Shown in pieces: positions 5,446 to 37,296 of a DNA stretch of 58,972 nucleotides; the first letter of the stretch is position 1, and the number at the start of each line of letters is the position of its first letter. The stretch spans positions 1 to 58,972 of the forward strand of contig CAJFQZ010000014.1 of NCBI GenBank assembly GCA_904419285.1, written 5' to 3'. Origin of the DNA: Lachnospiraceae bacterium UBA1818 (lineage in GTDB: Bacteria; Bacillota; Clostridia; Lachnospirales; Lachnospiraceae). Under the pieces are notes generated by a model. That model saw only the letters and a list, made by a program, of their open reading frames with translations. It had not been told where the DNA came from and did no database searches. Position numbers and translations under genes: made by a program.

Positions 5446-5458
5446 GATAAGTTCAGCA

Positions 5459-5545
5459 TACATCCCTACGTTGGCATTATCCAAATCAGGTTGCGGGTCG
5501 AGACGATACAGCCTCCTCTCAGCCGGCTTTGGCCAGCTCCCCGTG
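5459..5545 (-). promoter_or_regulatory. TPP riboswitch (THI element) controlling thiC
   Basis: The minus strand carries the conserved thi-box landmarks in order: GGGGAGC, GGCTGAGAGGAGG, CGACCCGCAACCTGAT, GGATAATGCCAACGTAGGGA. This is the thiamine pyrophosphate aptamer. With the terminator at 5415-5445 it should reduce thiC transcription when TPP is plentiful. Confidence 0.96.
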
Positions 5546-5572
5546 ACAGTCTTAAGTTTTCTGATCATTTTT

Positions 5573-28731: not shown

Positions 28732-31700
28732 TCAACTCTTCTTCTGAAGCTTTTGGTAGAGTTCCAGGATTTCCCCATAGTCCTTTCCACATAGGAAATA
28801 ATAGTCGATCTGCCGGTCTCCCTCAGTATACAGATAGGTGCCGTACATGGGAATATTGCAGCACAGGACGGTTTCCTCCGCGGCAATGCCGAGACCATAA
28901 CCGTATTCGGACACCAGCAGCGGCATGCGCAGCCGTTTCCCGCCGAAGCTGATATAGCGCGCCTTGTGGTCCATTCGCTTCAGATCTTCTGTGAGAATCC
29001 CTTTGGCAGACAGTTTTTCACTTTTCTGCCAGTCAAAATATTCCCATGTGCGGATGGTGTCCCCGCTCTCGATCTGCCGGGGAAGCGCAGTTCTCTCGGA
29101 GAGCAGCCGGCGGCCGTCTCTGTCGAAGAACCGCAGGGCTCCGCTCCTTCTGTCAGCCTGTATCCTGACCTTGTCGGTGGATAGCTCTACAAGCGATTTC
29201 CCTGCCCGTGCCGTCCATGCGACAGGACCTTCCGGCCGGCGGTCCCACCATCCTGGGGATGGATCGGGTGATCTTCCGGAGAGAAACTGTACCCGGATCA
29301 CTGCGTCGGTGATCGGAGTAAGGCGGAGGATCCCGCTGCGGCTGATCAGATCGAAACACTGCCGTGTCCGTTTTATATCACGAATTGCGAGATCTGCGGT
29401 TCCGGCGGCATCCTTTCGCTGCAGGATCCTGCTGTCCGGAGACGCTCCGAAGGGATAAGGCGAGGAGTTGACGGGAAGATCCGCGGGCGTCCCGGCAGGC
29501 CGCGGTTTATAAATGGCGGCAGGCGCCTGAGAGGACGGAGCAGAGGCCGCGCTGGAGGCTTTCCTCCCTGCGGCGTCAGAAGCACACCCGGTCTCATACC
29601 GAACCGCTCTGTTCGGTGTTCCGGGGGCAGATGTCCCGCCTGTATGGATGGAGGAGTCCGTATGTGCAGGAACGTCCTCCTTCCGGGGTTCCGGCAGCCG
29701 CTCCATCTCCCGCTCAGGAGCCGGCTTTCCGATCAGATCTGTCAGATCCCCCATATGCACGATGGTCAGCTCATGCAGTGCCCGGGTGGCTGCCACATAC
29801 AGAAGCTTCACGTATGCATCCTCCGCCGGATAGTTCTCCCTGGAAGGGTGATAGAGGAGTACTGCGTCGAACTCCAGTCCCTTTGTATATTCTACGGGGA
29901 GAACCATGATCCCCTCCGTGAAGCTGGCGGTCGCGGGATCCGTATCCGCAAGGAGCAGCTCTGAGCCGAGATGTTTCTTTACCGCGTCGGCCTCCTCCTC
30001 GTCCCGGCAGATCACGGCGATGGTCTCCCGGCCGTCCGCCTGCCATTTCCGGACAGATCCTGCAGTTTCCCGGAGCATTTCCGCCTCATCCCGGCAGCTG
30101 ACCGTGCGGACCGGAGCGCCGTGGCGGCGGATGGGATCTGCCGGGTAGACGGGAAAGCTTCCGTGCCGCAGGATCCCGGCAGCGAAGCCGGAGATTTCCA
30201 CGGTATTGCGGTAGCTCTTTTTCAGTACTCCGAACCCGCCGGGCAGTCCTTTGAGGAGTAGCTTCTTCAGATCCTCCCAGTCGTTGAGCCCATATCCGTA
30301 ATGGATGTTCTGGGACACATCGCCCATGATGGTGTAGGTGCAGCCCCGGAGGCAGTAGGCAAGGGAGCCGTACGCCGTCATGCCGAAATCCTGCGCCTCA
30401 TCGATGATCACATGGCTTGCCTCGCGGATGCCGTCAGTCTCCTTGATCCTTTTATAGAGGAAGGCCAGCGCCGCCAGGTCGTAGAGGTCAAATGCGTTTT
30501 CCACGGGCGGCACAGCCTTCCCTTTCTCTGCCTGAGCGGCGAGAAAGTCCTGATAGACTTCGAAAATGGAGCCCTTCCAGACATCCCTGCCGAAGTGACG
30601 GCGGTATTTCCGCAGGAGCTCCTTCTTCACATCCGGCGGATAAGTCATCTGCCTTCCGGCCGTCTCGTTCTCCAGCCTTGTAAGAAGGATCCGGTTGAGC
30701 ATATTGATCTTGCCCTGCATGGAGACCAGGGGATTGTTTTTCAGGCAGCTGCGGATCGTGCTCTCCTTTATGAGCAGGACGCCGTTGTCCATCATGACCC
30801 GTTCCACAGGGATCGACGCTTCCTCATAGTCCTGACAGAAACGCTCCAGGTCATGGAACCAGTCATAACTCCCCTTGATCCGCATGGCATCTTCTGGACC
30901 TGCATTTTTCGTTCTGCCGGGATGCCGGACAGAATACAGAGCGGGATCCCAATCCTCATAGAGCAGGCGGATAAAGAGCTGCTCCATCGTCATCTGGGAT
31001 ACTCCATATACGTCCAGATCCGGAAGCACGCTGGTGATGTAGTTCAGAAGGATGCGGTTGCTCCCGATGATATAGAAGTCTTCCGGGCGGAAGTCCTCCT
31101 CATAGTTATAGAGGATATAGGAAATACGGTGCATCGCCACAGTGGTCTTACCCGATCCGGCGACGCCTTGCACGATGAGGTTCATCCGGGGAGATCTGCG
31201 GATGACGGCATTCTGCTCTTTCTGGATGGTGGCGATGATCTCGCCGAGCACAGCGCTTTTATTCCTGGCGAGATATTTTGTGAGCAGTTCATCATTCGCC
31301 ACAACGTCCGAGTCGAAGAAATCGATCAGCCGGTCATCCGCGATCTCATAGGTCCGCTTCCGCTTCAGCTCGATCGTCTGAGAACCTTCATTCTTAACTG
31401 TATAAGTGCAGGGACCTAATCCGTTTTCGTAGTAAACAGAAGCGATGGGCGCCCGCCAGTCAATGACTGTGGGTTCGGAGCCGTTTCTGGAGATGCCCAC
31501 CCGTCCCACATAGTAGGATTCGTCCTGCGGAAGCCTGGGATCCCGGAAATCAATGCGCCCGAAATAGGGCTTTATCCGTGCCTTGCGGCAGCGCAGCAGA
31601 TCCCGCTGGTTTTCCCGCATCTGAGACTGGGTGTTGTGGAACATGGCGAGGGCTTCCTTGTCCTTCGTCCCGTAAGTCTCCATCAATTCGTGCAGTTCAT

Positions 31701-31839
31701 CCGACAACTGTGCACTGTACTGTTCTGCTTTCTCAAGATTTTCCTGCGCGATGCCGATGATCTCTGCAAGCTGTTCCTCCTCGGATCTGCGGTCGAGTCC
31801 CGGGACCGCGCGGAAACAATTACCTGTGTGTGGTTTCAC
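28732..31839 (-). CDS. HelD-type superfamily 1 helicase fused to a GH31 N-terminal-like domain
   Basis: The first 710 or so residues are a HelD-like motor ATPase: coiled-coil N-terminus (EEQLAEIIGIAQENLEKAEQ), Walker A VQGVAGSGKTT (about 31142-31170), Walker B IIDEAQDF (about 30385-30410) and motif VI ATRALHE. HelD proteins bind RNA polymerase and recycle stalled complexes. A linker rich in Ala, Pro and Ser (about 125 residues) leads to a C-terminal segment of about 210 residues that resembles the N-terminal beta-sandwich of GH31 glucosidases (SGILRLTPITDAVIRVQF, LLVSEYGYGLG, DYYFLCGKDYGEILELYQ) without any catalytic barrel. The start is uncertain: GTG 31839 has AGGTGA upstream; TTG 31881 is an alternative. 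Confidence 0.82.
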   Translation of the reverse strand: MKPHTGNCFRAVPGLDRRSEEEQLAEIIGIAQENLEKAEQYSAQLSDELHELMETYGTKDKEALAMFHNTQSQMRENQRDLLRCRKARIKPYFGRIDFRDPRLPQDESYYVGRVGISRNGSEPTVIDWRAPIASVYYENGLGPCTYTVKNEGSQTIELKRKRTYEIADDRLIDFFDSDVVANDELLTKYLARNKSAVLGEIIATIQKEQNAVIRRSPRMNLIVQGVAGSGKTTVAMHRISYILYNYEEDFRPEDFYIIGSNRILLNYITSVLPDLDVYGVSQMTMEQLFIRLLYEDWDPALYSVRHPGRTKNAGPEDAMRIKGSYDWFHDLERFCQDYEEASIPVERVMMDNGVLLIKESTIRSCLKNNPLVSMQGKINMLNRILLTRLENETAGRQMTYPPDVKKELLRKYRRHFGRDVWKGSIFEVYQDFLAAQAEKGKAVPPVENAFDLYDLAALAFLYKRIKETDGIREASHVIIDEAQDFGMTAYGSLAYCLRGCTYTIMGDVSQNIHYGYGLNDWEDLKKLLLKGLPGGFGVLKKSYRNTVEISGFAAGILRHGSFPVYPADPIRRHGAPVRTVSCRDEAEMLRETAGSVRKWQADGRETIAVICRDEEEADAVKKHLGSELLLADTDPATASFTEGIMVLPVEYTKGLEFDAVLLYHPSRENYPAEDAYVKLLYVAATRALHELTIVHMGDLTDLIGKPAPEREMERLPEPRKEDVPAHTDSSIHTGGTSAPGTPNRAVRYETGCASDAAGRKASSAASAPSSQAPAAIYKPRPAGTPADLPVNSSPYPFGASPDSRILQRKDAAGTADLAIRDIKRTRQCFDLISRSGILRLTPITDAVIRVQFLSGRSPDPSPGWWDRRPEGPVAWTARAGKSLVELSTDKVRIQADRRSGALRFFDRDGRRLLSERTALPRQIESGDTIRTWEYFDWQKSEKLSAKGILTEDLKRMDHKARYISFGGKRLRMPLLVSEYGYGLGIAAEETVLCCNIPMYGTYLYTEGDRQIDYYFLCGKDYGEILELYQKLQKKS

Positions 31840-31876
31840 CTGATAGTCACCTGCCTTTCTGGCATCAGATTTTCGA

Positions 31877-31927
31877 CACAAAGGGGAATAAAGGATCCCA
31901 GAGAAACTGTCTCCGCGATCCTTTGTG
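31877..31927 (-). promoter_or_regulatory. Mutually exclusive hairpins in the HelD gene leader
   Basis: CACAAAGG (31877-31884) can pair with CCTTTGTG (31920-31927), or AAGGATC (31891-31897) with GATCCTT (31917-31923). The two pairings share bases 31920-31923, so they exclude each other. The segment lies between the promoter and the candidate start codons. Confidence 0.5.
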
Positions 31928-31960
31928 TGAAATTGCTATCCTGTCTTGGTGTGTAAAGGT

Positions 31961-31990
31961 AATATAGCATTTGAAGAATTGAACTGTCAA
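31961..31990 (-). promoter_or_regulatory. Promoter of the HelD-type gene
   Basis: On the minus strand TTGACA (31985-31990), an 18-base spacer and TATATT (31961-31966). Confidence 0.7.
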
Positions 31991-32300
31991 TTTTATATCG
32001 GATTTATTTTGAATATGGAAGCACAATGTAAACACGGAATAAAGAATATTTGATTTAGAAGGAGAGTTTAAGATTTGGAAACAAGGGCCTATTTTTGAAA
32101 TTATGGTGATCTGTGTCCTCGGGCTGTGTTCCTGTGGTGAAATGTAGGATATGCTGAAAAGTTAAGCTCCTTATATGGCGCTCATTAGGGATGCGGCAAA
32201 GGTGTTTGCAATTATAAATGAAGGAGCAGGGGGCTTGGGATATCATGCATCGCAGGTTATCTAAGGATTCATCTATTAATAGAGTGTATTTATAAAAATA
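31991..32300. other. Intergenic segment with possible decayed coding sequence
   Basis: No intact gene is visible. On the plus strand, short stop-broken stretches such as MALIRDAAKVFAIINEGAGG (from about 32175) look protein-like, so this may be the remnant of a gene disrupted when the AT-rich cassette arrived. The family is not recognised and the call is weak. Confidence 0.25.
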
Positions 32301-32303
32301 TCT

Positions 32304-32331
32304 TTTACAAATACATAAATTATGGTAGTAT
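32304..32331 (+). promoter_or_regulatory. Promoter of the AT-rich three-gene cassette
   Basis: TTTACA (32304-32309), a 16-base spacer and TAGTAT (32326-32331). Confidence 0.55.
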
Positions 32332-32343
32332 TTATTTGGTGGT

Positions 32344-32380
32344 GACAGAATTTCTTGGAATGAGAAATTCTGTCTTTTTT
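32344..32380 (+). terminator. Leader terminator / attenuator before the cassette
   Basis: GACAGAATTTCT and AGAAATTCTGTC form a perfect 12-base stem with a seven-base loop, followed by six T residues. It lies between the promoter and the first gene, so transcription must read through it or be regulated by it. Confidence 0.8.
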
Positions 32381-32423
32381 GCGTCAGCAGAAAAGGAAAA
32401 ATATACTGAAAAGAGGGGCGTGC

Positions 32424-33545
32424 ATGCAGTCAGATAAAAAATCAGTAATGGATAAAATTGGAAAAGTATATAATGTTTTCTCAAAGAAAATTAATTTATT
32501 CTGCGGGTTGATTCTGGTGTGCTTAACAGCGTGTGTAATAATTGATCTTTTCACAGTCCCATACTGTTGTGCATTACTGGAAAGACTTTTTACTTACGAT
32601 ACAGGAAATCTTATAGCTGTAATCCTTGTAATTTGGACTTTTACTGCGACTTTGGTTATTTTTTATCTAGAAAGGCTGGAAAGTCGGCGTTATGGAATAA
32701 GAATGATAACAATAATTCGGCGTTCCTATAATGACAGTAAACTCCTTTTAATGGCAGCCACCTTTATGGCAGAGCTATTGGTTTTGATTTTTGCCTCTGT
32801 TGTATCCTTAGAAATTACATTGACAGTATCATCGATGATTCAGTTTGGAACAATGATTTTTGTGTTTCTTATGGTATGTATTGAAACTTCTGATTATCAT
32901 TTTAGAGAAATAATGAATGGGGAATATCATTCAGTACGTTATCAGGAGTCAATGAATTATAAAGAGGTTGAAAAAGCATATAAAGAATTAATGATTGTCA
33001 GAATGATCCGAAATCTGGACTACTCAAATTATGACAATTTAGAAGAACTAGAACAAGTGCTTCATGCAAATCCAGTCAATAAGAATTGGACAAATATTCG
33101 CAGGCATATAAATCGTAAAACTACTCAGCTTATTCTTGAATCGGGCAACGACAGTAAGGGAATGACAACTATTATATTAAATTTGTTTGATTATAACGAA
33201 GCCAGCCTGGATGATAAAAAAGGAATTTTAATGGCTTTGTTGGAATCACTATCTCCACAGAATCTGGAAATATGCCAAATTCTTCTTTCTACTGAAAAGA
33301 AATACCAGAAAGCGCTTTATGTTTGGTGTATAGTTCTAAACCGTTTTATGGAAGAATTTAACGACGAAAAATGGCGACAAAGTTATTTTGCCTTCTTTTT
33401 TGAGAATATAAAAAACAGTATAGATGAGAATACAGAGAAATTATTATGGAAATGCGCTGAAGAAATAAATCAAGATTATGAAGAAACGGATATGTCATGG
33501 ATATATGATACTTTAGATTATTTTATAGGCGGAGGTGAAGAATAG
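32424..33545 (+). CDS. Four-transmembrane protein with helical cytoplasmic domain (cassette gene 1)
   Basis: A 373-residue protein of unknown family. Hydrophobic helices lie at about 25-44, 63-83, 102-122 and 128-148. The remaining 225 residues are charged and mostly helical, with many Leu/Glu/Lys repeats, and should be cytoplasmic. No enzymatic motif is visible. ATG 32424 follows GAGGGG; an in-frame TTG at 32379 sits in the terminator T-run and is rejected. Its stop overlaps the GTG start of the next gene by one base, which indicates tight coupling. Base composition is clearly more AT-rich than that of neighbouring genes. It might act as a membrane sensor, anchor or effector for its partner. 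Confidence 0.75.
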   Translation: MQSDKKSVMDKIGKVYNVFSKKINLFCGLILVCLTACVIIDLFTVPYCCALLERLFTYDTGNLIAVILVIWTFTATLVIFYLERLESRRYGIRMITIIRRSYNDSKLLLMAATFMAELLVLIFASVVSLEITLTVSSMIQFGTMIFVFLMVCIETSDYHFREIMNGEYHSVRYQESMNYKEVEKAYKELMIVRMIRNLDYSNYDNLEELEQVLHANPVNKNWTNIRRHINRKTTQLILESGNDSKGMTTIILNLFDYNEASLDDKKGILMALLESLSPQNLEICQILLSTEKKYQKALYVWCIVLNRFMEEFNDEKWRQSYFAFFFENIKNSIDENTEKLLWKCAEEINQDYEETDMSWIYDTLDYFIGGGEE

Positions 33546-36178
33546 TGAAGGACATAAGGATATTAACTCTTTATAAACAGTATTACCTTGATTCATATCC
33601 TACCCCCTTGAAGTGTCAATATACAACATGGGGATATTACGATGGGATAGATATAACAGCATGCGAAAGCGATACAAATTCCAGCAACCTTTTTGAAAAA
33701 AGATCTCAGGCTCCTATATCACAAATATGGTACGAGACAGGTGCAGTAATCGAAAGGCTTGAAGGAAAGTATGGGAATCAAATTATAGGAATGTTTCGAT
33801 GTGTATCAGAGCAGGAACAGGAACGGGTAAAGCAGACAGAAGCGTTTTGGGGAATTTATGATAGTATGCCGTTCATGGCTGTTGGATTTCTGCAATTTAC
33901 TGATGGAAATGATTATGAAGAGATTAGCAGGGAAATAGAAAGTAAAGGTGATAAATATGGAGAAAATTTGGAAAAAGAGCACTGCTTTATTCTTACATAT
34001 TGTACTTACGATAACGCAGATTTGATTGTTTTACTGCTGGCAAACAGTATTACAAAAATGAAAAGTATTTTAGAAGAAATAGAGGGGATGCTGACGGTGC
34101 AATATATGCATTCTATTATGGGGGTATCAGAAGTTTATCTTGGGGAATGCAGGGAAAATTCAGAAATACTTAGCGTATGGAGAAAAACAAATTGTTTTGT
34201 TGGGAATTTTATTAAAAGATTGAATATCCATATTGTCACCTCTGGTAACAAGAATATATTGGGTGAGCTGAAGACTGTACTGGATAGGAGCAATGAGATA
34301 TGGGGCCTGCAGGGATATGACAAGGCTTCATACTCCTATATATTCGGGCACGAAAATATCTGTATCACATTGTACGATACAAATGTTAAAAGTTTGATGG
34401 CGCTTCTGGTTCCCGGGGGATTTGCTACACATCAGAACGGTGTATACGGGAGAGGTGTGTATAATATAGAAACTTCATTCGTTGTAAAGGAAAACGAGTG
34501 GAAAGATATTAAAGGTTTGGAGTTGAAAGAACCAGATCAGGAAGAAAAAGAAGGAATATGCAGATTTCTCTTAAGTAAGTACCGTGCTCGTCTAAAAGAA
34601 GTGAAAAAGGAGGATGAAAGTCTTTATTCCTATTATCAGGCGCTGATGCAGACAGTCAATACATTGGATCAATATGAGAATTTCGAAATGTCTAAAAATA
34701 TTTTTTGGCTTTTGTTTCCGGCATTATTACTGTTCGATAATCTATTGGATAAAGCATTCTGCAATGATAAAAGCAACTATTATGAGAGGATTGAGAGTAT
34801 AAAGAGGTCAATTAAGCGGTTTCTGGATTCAGTGAATTCTGTTATTTACCACACCATTCACACAGATCAGATGTTCCTTATGGTCCCGGGATACAGCGGA
34901 AGTCCTTTTTCGATACCGATAAAACTAAGTCTGATGTATACATGGTTTATTGATAAGGTTACAAGTGTTCTCAATGACAGCAGTCATAAATATTGTTGCA
35001 TACTGGCGCCCGAAATGGAATCGCGGCCAATTACCAATATAATAGGATTTGGTCTTCCAGCAAGAGATCGATTAATTTTAGTCAGACTTTCTCAGCGATC
35101 ACTTTTCCTTCCGCGCGACTTAATGATTATTCTTAATCACGAAATTGCACATTACGTATCAGAACAAGTGCGCAATCGAGCGGCAAGGCTGGATGGCATT
35201 ACTGTAACGCTTGCATATTTTGTAGCAGAATATATCTTTCCGGAAAACTACAATCCTAATGCATTAACTAAAATGGAAAAATGTGTTTCTCACAGATTGA
35301 AAGAAGACATAAAAAATACATTACAAACAAATGCTCTTTATTTCCTGATGGAGTACAATAGTCATCAGTTTAAAGAGGAAGAAGATATATATGCAAATAA
35401 CCTTTCGGAAAAATTGTTTGATGCGGTATGGAATTATATCGGACCGACAGAAAAGCGAGCCCATAAGGTAATTTTTAGTCTTCCGGATGATATAAGAGAA
35501 GAAATAGAAAAAAATGATGAAGAATTTACAAGACTAATGAGATTCGTATATAGAATACAGAGACATCTAGATGGAAACAGAAAAAAAATGCAGGGAGATA
35601 GAAGAGTAAAGCAGACTATTGATCGGATCTTAAAAATATATAGAGAAATTTTCAGCGACGTTGCAGCAATGGTTATATTAAAAATTGACGAAAATGATTT
35701 CAGAGAGGCTTTTCAGATTTCAGAAGGAAGAAAAATCTTTGAAGAAAACAGACCTGAGGAACAAATGCTTAGAGAAAAAGTTATTTACTGTCTAATAAAT
35801 AGAATATCTCCAGATGATGAAATTTTTTCTGTATCAGGTCATTTTGAAGACAAAGAGGACTTAAAAAGTAATATAAAAGATGAAGAACATGAGAGCGTTG
35901 TATCAGACATTTACCGCTATGGTTGGATGCAGAGAGAGTTGTTGATTTACGCAAAAAAAGTATATGAAAGACTGGTTAGAAGAATAGAGGAAAAAGATTG
36001 TAAGGAAGATGTGAAAGCAATCAGGAAACTATTCAATTTGTTTAAAGGGAAACCAGAGTTGGAGTGTTCAGAAATTTATCATCGCATTAATAATTGCATT
36101 TCCGAATATGCTAAGAAGCAAGAGTTGGATTATATGGCTTGGAAAGAAGAAAATAAGTATAGTCTTGACAATATGTAA
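33545..36178 (+). CDS. Large HEIAH metalloprotease-like protein (cassette gene 2)
   Basis: An 877-residue cytoplasmic protein. The N-terminal 330 residues alternate predicted strands and helices (WGYYDGIDI near 29-37, HCFILTYCTYDNADLIVLLL near 145-164) and may be one or two ferredoxin-like sensor folds. Residues 360-500 are helical. The central ILNHEIAHYVSEQV contains HExxH (His532, Glu533, His536). A candidate third ligand, Glu701 in EIFSDVAAM, forms an ExxxD pattern with Asp705 as in gluzincin peptidases. The C-terminus is helical and highly charged. It starts with GTG overlapping the previous stop. No known family is recognised. A membrane-associated protease responding to a signal through its partner is plausible but unproven. 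Confidence 0.75.
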   Translation: MKDIRILTLYKQYYLDSYPTPLKCQYTTWGYYDGIDITACESDTNSSNLFEKRSQAPISQIWYETGAVIERLEGKYGNQIIGMFRCVSEQEQERVKQTEAFWGIYDSMPFMAVGFLQFTDGNDYEEISREIESKGDKYGENLEKEHCFILTYCTYDNADLIVLLLANSITKMKSILEEIEGMLTVQYMHSIMGVSEVYLGECRENSEILSVWRKTNCFVGNFIKRLNIHIVTSGNKNILGELKTVLDRSNEIWGLQGYDKASYSYIFGHENICITLYDTNVKSLMALLVPGGFATHQNGVYGRGVYNIETSFVVKENEWKDIKGLELKEPDQEEKEGICRFLLSKYRARLKEVKKEDESLYSYYQALMQTVNTLDQYENFEMSKNIFWLLFPALLLFDNLLDKAFCNDKSNYYERIESIKRSIKRFLDSVNSVIYHTIHTDQMFLMVPGYSGSPFSIPIKLSLMYTWFIDKVTSVLNDSSHKYCCILAPEMESRPITNIIGFGLPARDRLILVRLSQRSLFLPRDLMIILNHEIAHYVSEQVRNRAARLDGITVTLAYFVAEYIFPENYNPNALTKMEKCVSHRLKEDIKNTLQTNALYFLMEYNSHQFKEEEDIYANNLSEKLFDAVWNYIGPTEKRAHKVIFSLPDDIREEIEKNDEEFTRLMRFVYRIQRHLDGNRKKMQGDRRVKQTIDRILKIYREIFSDVAAMVILKIDENDFREAFQISEGRKIFEENRPEEQMLREKVIYCLINRISPDDEIFSVSGHFEDKEDLKSNIKDEEHESVVSDIYRYGWMQRELLIYAKKVYERLVRRIEEKDCKEDVKAIRKLFNLFKGKPELECSEIYHRINNCISEYAKKQELDYMAWKEENKYSLDNM

Positions 36179-36216
36179 TATATAATATTAAAATGTATAA
36201 ACGGAGGAATAGAAAA

Positions 36217-36405
36217 ATGCAAAAAAAAATTAGAAATAATTATATGATAGATGTTAAACTGCAGACCGTGTCAGTAAGGGATAAAGATAACTGGAACTCT
36301 TTTTCCGGTGCGTTAAAGAATAAAGGAAATAGATATTCCTCTGATGAAGTAATTGGAAAAATTAATCCAGAAATGGATAGGATAATAGGTAGGTATAAGC
36401 GTTGA
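36217..36405 (+). CDS. Small basic protein (cassette gene 3)
   Basis: A 62-residue basic protein with no membrane segment or signal peptide. ATG 36217 has a good GGAGG ribosome binding site ten bases upstream; the in-frame ATG at 36193 does not. It lies 38 bases after the protease-like gene and before the cassette terminator, with the same AT-rich composition, so it most likely belongs to the same transcription unit. It could be a regulator, substrate, inhibitor or activator of the protease; nothing in the sequence decides this. Confidence 0.55.
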   Translation: MQKKIRNNYMIDVKLQTVSVRDKDNWNSFSGALKNKGNRYSSDEVIGKINPEMDRIIGRYKR

Positions 36406-36462
36406 AACAACTTTTTGTATTTTTCATCCAAGTGCAGCAATGAATTGAAATAGTGTATACGG

Positions 36463-36490
36463 AACCCCTTGACTAATCAGGGGGTTTTTT
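36463..36490 (+). terminator. Terminator of the AT-rich cassette
   Basis: ACCCCTTGA and TCAGGGGGT arms around a short loop, followed by six T residues. Confidence 0.85.
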
Positions 36491-36525
36491 ATTATAATAA
36501 AGTCCGTATGAATTTCAAAAACAAA

Positions 36526-36833
36526 GGCAGTGACGGAGACAGTAAGAGCCGTCTGAACATCCCAGCGAGCCGGGGAAGGTGCAAGCCCGGTACAAGTAAG
36601 AAGCTTCCGAATATCACTCCTGAGCCGCAGCCCCCAAAGCATACTTGGGACAGATGCAGCATGGAAAGTAAGGGCTGACGCAGATCCCGCGTTAGAGGAT
36701 ACCATATACGAACTGAAAGTTTCTGAACACAGAAAGACAGCGTGTATAAGGACAGAGAAGTTCAAGTATGATGTAACAGGTGGTTAAAACGAGAGTATTG
36801 CTTTCGTCCTATTGCAGGACGGAAGCTTTTTTT
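36526..36833 (+). promoter_or_regulatory. T-box riboswitch, isoleucine type, upstream of ileS
   Basis: Stem I landmarks are visible (CAGCGAGCCGGGGAAGGTG with the pairing AAGCCCGG). A candidate specifier ATC (36613-36615) lies in GAATATCAC. The T-box proper is AACAGGTGGTTAAAACGAGAG (about 36775-36795), and the terminator has GCTTTCGTCCT/AGGACGGAAGC arms (36800-36826) with a T run. Uncharged tRNA-Ile binding should favour the antiterminator and turn on ileS. Confidence 0.9.
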
Positions 36834-36868
36834 ATCTGCTGATGGGGAAACGTATATCGGCAGGGCGG

Positions 36869-37006
36869 AACCTGCATGGATGATATATCCGCTGCGGACA
36901 CGCTCCCGCTCGTAGAAAAACGCAGCGGACACATAAGACCGCAAAAGACGCGGTCTAAGTGCCGGCGTTTTTCAACGGTCCTTCGCGGACATACCATCCA
37001 TGCAGG
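36869..37006 (+). repeat. Palindromic element copy 1 (inverted relative to copy 2)
   Basis: Nested stems: CCTGCATGGATG/CATCCATGCAGG outside, GAAAAACGC/GCGTTTTTC (36915-36923, 36965-36973), and AGACCGC/GCGGTCT (36936-36942, 36950-36956). Its reverse complement aligns over about 100 bases with copy 2 at 37156-37296, including the 14-base block AAACGCCGGCACTT. Further imperfect complementarity extends outwards to about 36835 and 37041. Confidence 0.75.
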
Positions 37007-37060
37007 CTCCCCGAAGCCGGAAGGTTTCCTCTGATAGCAGATGAAAAAAGACTGCCGTGA

Positions 37061-37113
37061 GGAGAGTTCGGATCAGAAGCGCGATGGCGCCCCTGAAGAT
37101 TTGAAAACTCTCC
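37061..37113 (+). other. Hairpin between the two palindromic copies
   Basis: GGAGAGTT (37061-37068) pairs with AACTCTCC (37106-37113), with an inner TCAG/CTGA and GCGC/GCGC stem. With its neighbours it makes almost the whole ileS leader structured. Confidence 0.5.
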
Positions 37114-37155
37114 CGGCTGCAACCCGAAACTATGATTCAGGCTCCCGTTCTGGAA

Positions 37156-37296
37156 GGCCCGTGTGCAGCTATATGCCGATGAAGGGCCGTAATGAAACGC
37201 CGGCACTTGGGCTGCGTATTTTGCAGCCCTATGTACCGCTGCGTTTCATTCCGAACGAGAGTGTGCCCGCCATCGGCATATAGCTGCGCGCGGGCC
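37156..37296 (+). repeat. Palindromic element copy 2, directly before the ileS ribosome binding site
   Basis: The outer stem is 26 bases long (37156-37181 with 37271-37296); its only non-Watson-Crick positions are U-G wobbles if transcribed. Inner stems are AATGAAACGC/GCGTTTCATT (37191-37200, 37241-37250) and GGGCTGC/GCAGCCC (37209-37215, 37223-37229). Compared with copy 1, both inner stems have changed on both sides while keeping pairing. Confidence 0.8.

Follow-up and report, generated by a model that had tools for sequence, protein, structure and literature searches.

A horizontally variable cassette upstream of ileS in Lachnospiraceae bacterium UBA1818 is built around a predicted HExxH peptidase with exchangeable partners

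Introduction

What does an AT-rich three-gene cassette do between the genes helD and ileS in Lachnospiraceae bacterium UBA1818? The cassette lies in a 58,972-nucleotide stretch of DNA (GenBank contig CAJFQZ010000014.1; hereafter the window) and encodes a membrane protein with four transmembrane (TM) helices, an 877-amino-acid protein with an HExxH motif, and a small basic protein. Comparison with related loci (L numbers) and genomes (G numbers) shows that the HExxH protein is the core of the unit and has exchangeable, usually tightly coupled partners, and that the cassette is an insertion. From the company it keeps, the cassette is probably a conflict or defense module. The fuller reading, that it is a mobile conflict module and most likely an anti-phage operon of the abortive-infection type built on an HExxH...ExxxD metallopeptidase, is put forward tentatively, at somewhat less than even strength.

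The peptidase family

The coding features of the cassette are as follows.

32424..33545, + strand: gene 1 (ATG start), 373-amino-acid membrane protein with four N-terminal TM helices and a helical C-terminal half
33545..36178, + strand: gene 2 (GTG start), 877-amino-acid HExxH peptidase; residues 1-300 a putative tandem ferredoxin-like alpha+beta region, residues 340-877 mostly helical
35138..35152, + strand: codons of H532-E-I-A-H536, the HExxH motif, invariant in 25/25 aligned members
35645..35659, + strand: codons of E701-IFS-D705, with E701 as a proposed third zinc ligand and D705 as a proposed second-shell residue, in 25/25 aligned members
36217..36405, + strand: gene 3, 62-amino-acid small basic protein (70 amino acids from ATG 36193) with an NSFS motif, found in 8/12 four-TM loci, window included

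Genes 1 and 2 overlap by one base (33545), as the first-pass annotation of the window had stated. The ratios of nonsynonymous to synonymous substitution rates (dN/dS) between the window and its relative L007 are about 0.14 for gene 1, 0.13 for gene 2 and 0.36 for gene 3, with dS of genes 1 and 2 near saturation; these ratios support all three genes as real, in agreement with the three-gene composition proposed in that annotation.

It is evident that gene 2 belongs to a family with a conserved putative active site. H532, E533, H536, R545, R548, E701, D705, R743 and Y802 are invariant in all 25 aligned members (window included), and every protein carries a single HExxH at the same aligned position. 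The HExxH at residues 532-536 and Glu701 in an ExxxD pattern had been picked out from the window alone. Because these catalytic-type residues are invariant in 25 members, E701 is upheld as the candidate third ligand. Judging from its sequence, gene 2 very probably encodes a metallopeptidase of gluzincin type that has an alpha+beta region at its N terminus. The tree and counts leave aside L038 and L045 (both with a TM partner; the peptidase lies in two frames and was not read through), L059 (519 amino acids, weak match), a remnant in G049 (L004/L047/L051/L096), and L002 and L003, which duplicate L007 and L015.

No Pfam, PADLOC or NCBIfam family and no PDB sequence covers the family. PADLOC models give no match to gene 2 or to nine of its relatives at E 0.1, and Foldseek searches with whole models returned nothing below E 0.001. 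Matches of the peptidase profile to RNase L and to an ice-binding protein (E 8e-4 and 0.004) were judged to be chance helical matches. A housekeeping peptidase was rejected as the identity of gene 2, since no family in the searched libraries covers it and its distribution is patchy.

Exchangeable partners

Gene 2 homologs without genes 1 and 3 had been named as a finding that would refute the first proposal, and they exist: 13 of the 25 loci have no TM partner, and the gene 3 profile finds a copy in 7 of the 11 other four-TM loci searched. This leaves the idea of a module standing, with the peptidase as its core and gene 1 as an alternative partner. The 25 loci comprise 12 with a TM partner of gene-1 type or look, 10 with a DACNH/DAC partner (DAC being the DisA-type diadenylate cyclase domain), two with a SIR2-like partner, and one (L058) with none recognized, so that the peptidase has at least three kinds of partner, gene 1 among them. 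Of 24 loci, 21 have partner and peptidase spaced by -40 to +60 bases; the spacing in the other three, L037, L041 and L043, is 274-364 bases.

The DACNH/DAC assignments differ in strength. DACNH and/or DAC score above the Pfam cut-off beside the peptidases of L036, L040, L042, L043, L103 and L104, and below it beside L035, L037 and L044 (E 6e-6 to 2e-4); the L041 partner has no Pfam match and was assigned to DAC on the grounds that it agrees with alignment A5, of which it is itself a member, in every invariant column. SIR2_2 partners lie downstream of the peptidase in L046 (2.8e-16) and L057 (4e-15), and the L057 protein also matches the PADLOC ThsA, LmuA and SIR2 models. The DAC locus L036 has, in addition, a SLATT_5 protein 3' of the peptidase (3.8e-10), with a PADLOC RTasSLATT match (1.6e-14).

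In the peptidase tree, 11 of the 12 TM-partner rows, window included, form one clade (100/100). The DAC rows fall into two starred groups, one of six rows with the DAC gene first and one of four with the peptidase first; the remaining TM row, L039, joins the second. The partner labels require four changes on the tree and the minimum possible is three; therefore partners have been exchanged, or paired independently, at least once.

Gene 1 shows a YGI motif between TM2 and TM3, and Asp41, Trp71 and Gly91 are invariant across ten gene 1 sequences. Its structural model, of moderate quality (mean pLDDT 68), has four TM-length helices and a helical C-terminal half, and a crude hydropathy scan finds three to five hydrophobic segments in eleven partners of this kind. 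The TM partner of L034 is a distant gene 1 homolog (hhalign probability 93%), and that of L039 shares a 20-column stretch with gene 1 (probability 55%). A PADLOC CARF_TM match of gene 1 (0.003, residues 108-337) was judged a chance helical match.

ATG 36217, which has a GGAGG (read by eye) nine bases ahead of it, is a likelier start of gene 3 than ATG 36193. The protein carries the NSFS motif and, in most copies, a G-x-[LI]-[ND]-P tail. Clear copies are found in the window, in L007-L012 and, on the opposite strand, in L015. A profile built from these eight copies finds none in L013, L014, L034 or L039, nor in any of the 13 loci that lack a TM partner. A loose motif that also occurs in 2.9% of background small open reading frames had suggested candidates in L013, L014 and L034; they were unconfirmed by the profile and dropped. 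These data bear on a toxin-antitoxin or selfish stability module, in which gene 2 and/or gene 1 would be toxic and gene 3 would be the antitoxin or a peptidase inhibitor. The presence of a small conserved gene adjoining the peptidase in eight of the 12 four-TM loci is consistent with such a module, as is its single occurrence on the opposite strand, as if it were independently needed; the loci in which the profile is empty argue that the family can do without gene 3, and we consider this explanation improbable.

Diadenylate cyclase genes and the peptidase

The association with DACNH-DAC proteins was also examined from the partner's side. The DACNH Pfam model finds genes in 4 of 240 family genomes (three above the cut-off) and in none of 14 controls. 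Three of the four adjoin this peptidase. The fourth belongs to the window genome, where it lies on a different contig (L094:7727-9076, + strand) and has no visible peptidase neighbor; the contig stops 205 bases past the gene, just within a further reading frame. A search of the window genome assembly found no second peptidase, although a neighbor of the DACNH-DAC gene may have been lost at the contig end.

A DAC profile search of 13 further genomes of four-TM type revealed three more genes (L102, L103 and L104). L103 and L104 are complete peptidase-DAC units, so that two genomes hold both a four-TM and a DAC unit, and the L102 gene lies between flagellin genes without a peptidase. DACNH-DAC genes are thus present in 4/14 genomes of four-TM type versus 3/239 in the sample (P ~2e-4, Fisher's exact test), or in 3/13 when the window genome is left out (P ~0.002), and both comparisons serve as a lead only, as the queries differed. 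The three loci lie inside or beside flagellin arrays, with flagellin and FliD matches below NCBIfam cut-offs, and a 1149-amino-acid neighbor in L103 matches Flagellin_N.

The nine aligned DAC proteins keep the DGA/DGS motif. RHR is a motif of DAC domains, and all nine have R-[YFH]-N in its place. The DAC profile found no match among PDB sequences. A rival explanation is that a second messenger controls the peptidase: the partner would be the sensor or signal maker (the DAC protein by producing a dinucleotide, the four-TM protein by sensing membrane damage), the alpha+beta region of gene 2 would be the receptor, and the peptidase itself would be the toxic component, breaking down proteins of the host or the phage. 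The SIR2-like partners of two loci are more readily effectors than sensors, the replacement of RHR makes cyclase activity uncertain, and the 4/14 co-occurrence figure and its background come from different queries. We regard this explanation as rather unlikely.

Insertion between helD and ileS

The cassette is an insertion of about 4.6 kb between helD and ileS.

31875..36462, no strand: insertion relative to eight same-genus genomes, from blastn of the flanks

In 8/8 same-genus genomes with an empty site, the end of helD and the region upstream of ileS are 107-309 bp apart. Because the homology of all eight to the window ends at 31,803-31,874 and restarts at 36,463-36,493, the positions between, 31,875-36,462, were called the insertion; the extent first drawn, 32304..36490, thus captured a real cassette and was too small at its upstream side. 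The ileS loci of 30 of the 58 genus genomes were read, including the window's own and G048; helD lies directly upstream in eight, and 20 others, in which the upstream sequence that was read does not match helD, are uninformative for the insertion site.

A terminator at 36461-36488 had been taken as the last part of the cassette. It overlaps a predicted ileS promoter (36469-36498), and in 16 of 28 genus relatives that lack a cassette here, the alignment to the window begins at 36463-36468. Since cassette-free relatives share the sequence from there on, the terminator lies outside the cassette, in the shared part.

Candidatus Mediterraneibacter norfolkensis (L007 = G048; Lachnospiraceae, same genus) carries a cassette at the identical place upstream of ileS. 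Amino-acid identity to the window is 70% for gene 1, 73% for gene 2 and 61% for gene 3, whereas ileS is 98% identical over its first 199 aligned codons, so that the cassettes have diverged strongly for their neighborhood. Elsewhere, cassettes or the remnant (L015, L009, L057, L046 and L096) adjoin or lie near the core genes rpoC, rpsO-pnp, rplQ, ileS and rplJ, like the window's cassette beside ileS.

Composition and distribution

The GC content of positions 32304-36490 is 0.342, compared with 0.430-0.567 (mean 0.500) in 460 same-size stretches elsewhere in the window. GC at third codon positions is 0.28-0.33 in the cassette genes versus 0.61-0.68 in ileS and helD. Among 24 cassettes, whose limits were set by hand for this comparison, GC is below that of the flanks in 23 (mean difference 0.088; the exception is L013).

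Full relatives occur in 2 of the 57 other same-genus genomes (G048, 73%; G026 = L015, 40%), and G049 holds a C-terminal remnant. With profiles, relatives turned up in 12 of the 396 other genomes sampled from the family, in 1 of 390 from the class (G149) and in 4 of 391 from the order (G508, G1096, G086 and, as the remnant, G049), and no credible relative among the 397 sampled from the phylum. Two phylum-sample matches besides the window's own genome were dropped as they span just 31 and 53 positions, and matches in G046 and G033 (E 8e-4 and 4e-4) were dropped as they lie inside other genes (by eye, a recombinase and a sugar/ABC-type locus).

The empty site in eight relatives, the patchy occurrence, the lower GC than the flanks and the G049 remnant together make horizontal transfer, or horizontal variability, of the cassette well supported, and the transfer that had been proposed from AT-richness and codon bias is borne out. 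These results also bear on a housekeeping alternative, stress-response regulated proteolysis by a membrane sensor and a cytoplasmic peptidase. The pairing of a membrane protein with a peptidase fits it, and a leader hairpin in the window and L007 could attenuate transcription; patchy presence, the empty site in relatives, low GC and the swap to SIR2 or DAC partners argue against housekeeping proteolysis, to which we give little credence.

Neighbors of several relatives were compared with Pfam. Matches of a defense or mobile type are to AEP-TOTE and AbiEii (L012), AAA_21 (L034), TIR_2 (L103), a serine recombinase (L013) and a phage integrase (L058); a further match is to AAA_15 (L037). Two neighbors at L012 match nothing and one at L034 is lysozyme-like.

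Signals upstream of gene 1

Two predicted signals precede gene 1.

32304..32331, + strand: sigma-70-like promoter, TTTACA-16-TAGTAT with TG before the -10 element, from the promoter scan; conserved in L007
32344..32374, + strand: leader terminator-like hairpin followed by T6; present in 2/11 loci

The claim that the unit has its own promoter and leader terminator stands in part, as both are conserved in L007, where the hairpin, with pairing read by eye, has one compensatory change of an A-T to a G-C pair. The promoter scan, on the other hand, gave 25 predictions versus 18.5 +/- 4.3 in shuffles, no clear excess, and in nine of the 11 loci compared, a search of the 350 bases upstream of gene 1 found no terminator-like hairpin. 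The hairpin was thus rejected as a general feature of the system.

Other features of the window

The HelD-type gene (28732-31881, - strand) encodes 1049 amino acids, of which the last ~220 residues resemble, by eye, the N-terminal domain of GH31 glycosidases; Pfam at E 0.01 reports helicase/AAA domains only, and its NCBIfam HelD match is below that model's cut-off. The ileS leader (36500-36830) contains a terminator-like hairpin at 36800-36826 and looks T-box-like by eye, with no Rfam family at threshold. Between leader and gene, positions 36867-37285 have opposite-strand, inverted-repeat-like matches in most genus relatives compared. A TPP riboswitch lies at 5446-5553 (- strand).

Proposed mechanism

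The first-pass annotation had suggested a defense or a regulated-proteolysis module, and the association of the peptidase with SIR2-like, DACNH/DAC and, once, SLATT_5 partners is what points to a module of this kind. Under the anti-phage reading, the N-terminal alpha+beta region would sense a signal of infection or damage, and sensing would release the peptidase, which would then cut and thereby activate its partner. In the window the partner would be the four-TM protein, whose activation would damage the membrane, and the small gene 3 protein might inhibit the peptidase, act as its adaptor or be its substrate; in the relatives the partner would be a SIR2-like or diadenylate-cyclase-type protein. 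That the peptidase gates its partner in this way is possible, and we hold it doubtful.

Several observations weigh against the anti-phage reading. If the DAC protein makes a signal, the peptidase may be the effector rather than the gate. Searches of phage, plasmid and viral-contig collections found no relative (queries: window, L036, L057 and L103 proteins, and alignments A1 and A6). The neighbors given to Pfam were ten picked by eye and as such say nothing on enrichment. In PADLOC-DB 2.0.0 no model fits gene 1 or gene 2 convincingly and none matches gene 3, and 7 of 10 partners searched, the L046 SIR2 protein among them, match nothing in PADLOC. A SLATT protein is found in 1 of 24 loci; a phmmer search with the L036 protein found no relative in the other 23. 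Library and structure searches gave no convincing fold or sequence match for gene 1. The tree has long branches (L034, L039, L041, L042, L058 and L104), and the four-TM pairing of L039, whose TM partner shares a stretch of just 20 columns with gene 1, may be independent.

A broader proposal, which we offer as speculation with a limited chance of being right, is that Lachnospirales possess a peptidase-centered immune family, in which the ligand-sensing metallopeptidase would be an interchangeable switch for a four-TM protein, a SIR2-like NADase or a DAC-type protein with or without SLATT. In genomes with both a four-TM unit and a DACNH-DAC gene, a dinucleotide produced by one of the two could set off the other's peptidase. 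If these readings are true, a peptidase family without a Pfam model would join the bacterial conflict systems, DisA-type cyclase domains would be linked to proteolysis, and gut Lachnospiraceae would provide a compact, testable operon. Comparison of three partner types around one peptidase makes it testable what a defense peptidase switches on.

Comparison with known systems

HExxH followed by ExxxD is a trait of peptidase family M48 (Pfam PF01435), and the gene 2 family shares this order. The M48 cut-off is passed by L013 (21.9 versus 20.3 bits), one of the 10 members of alignment A2, over the HExxH part only, and L010, L011 and L103 show weak matches to the same part. However, window gene 2 itself is unmatched at E 1, the match of its relatives spans profile positions 36-106 of 186 and leaves the third-ligand part uncovered, and gene 2 bears an unrelated alpha+beta region in front. 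That region (residues 1-300) may have a fold like that of the Lrp/AsnC RAM domain and the chlorite-dismutase-like alpha+beta barrel, at 4-13% identity; in gene 2 it is fused to a peptidase, and a likeness of fold would imply no ligand.

Partners of the family include proteins related to anti-phage toxins or to nucleotide signaling. DACNH/DAC proteins lie beside ten gene 2 relatives, whereas the window unit has a four-TM protein instead and no DACNH-DAC gene in its operon. The SIR2_2 partner of L057 matches models of SIR2-like NADase effectors (PADLOC ThsA, LmuA and Dsr2), but such proteins are partners only of the distant relatives L046 and L057 and are not found in the window. Like the SLATT_5 protein of L036, gene 1 is a membrane protein; unlike SLATT effectors it has four TM helices and no SLATT Pfam match, and the TM partners of L034, L038 and L039 likewise have no SLATT match. 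The peptidase family is unnamed by the libraries searched (Pfam, PADLOC and NCBIfam), and modular effector operons as such are of a known kind.
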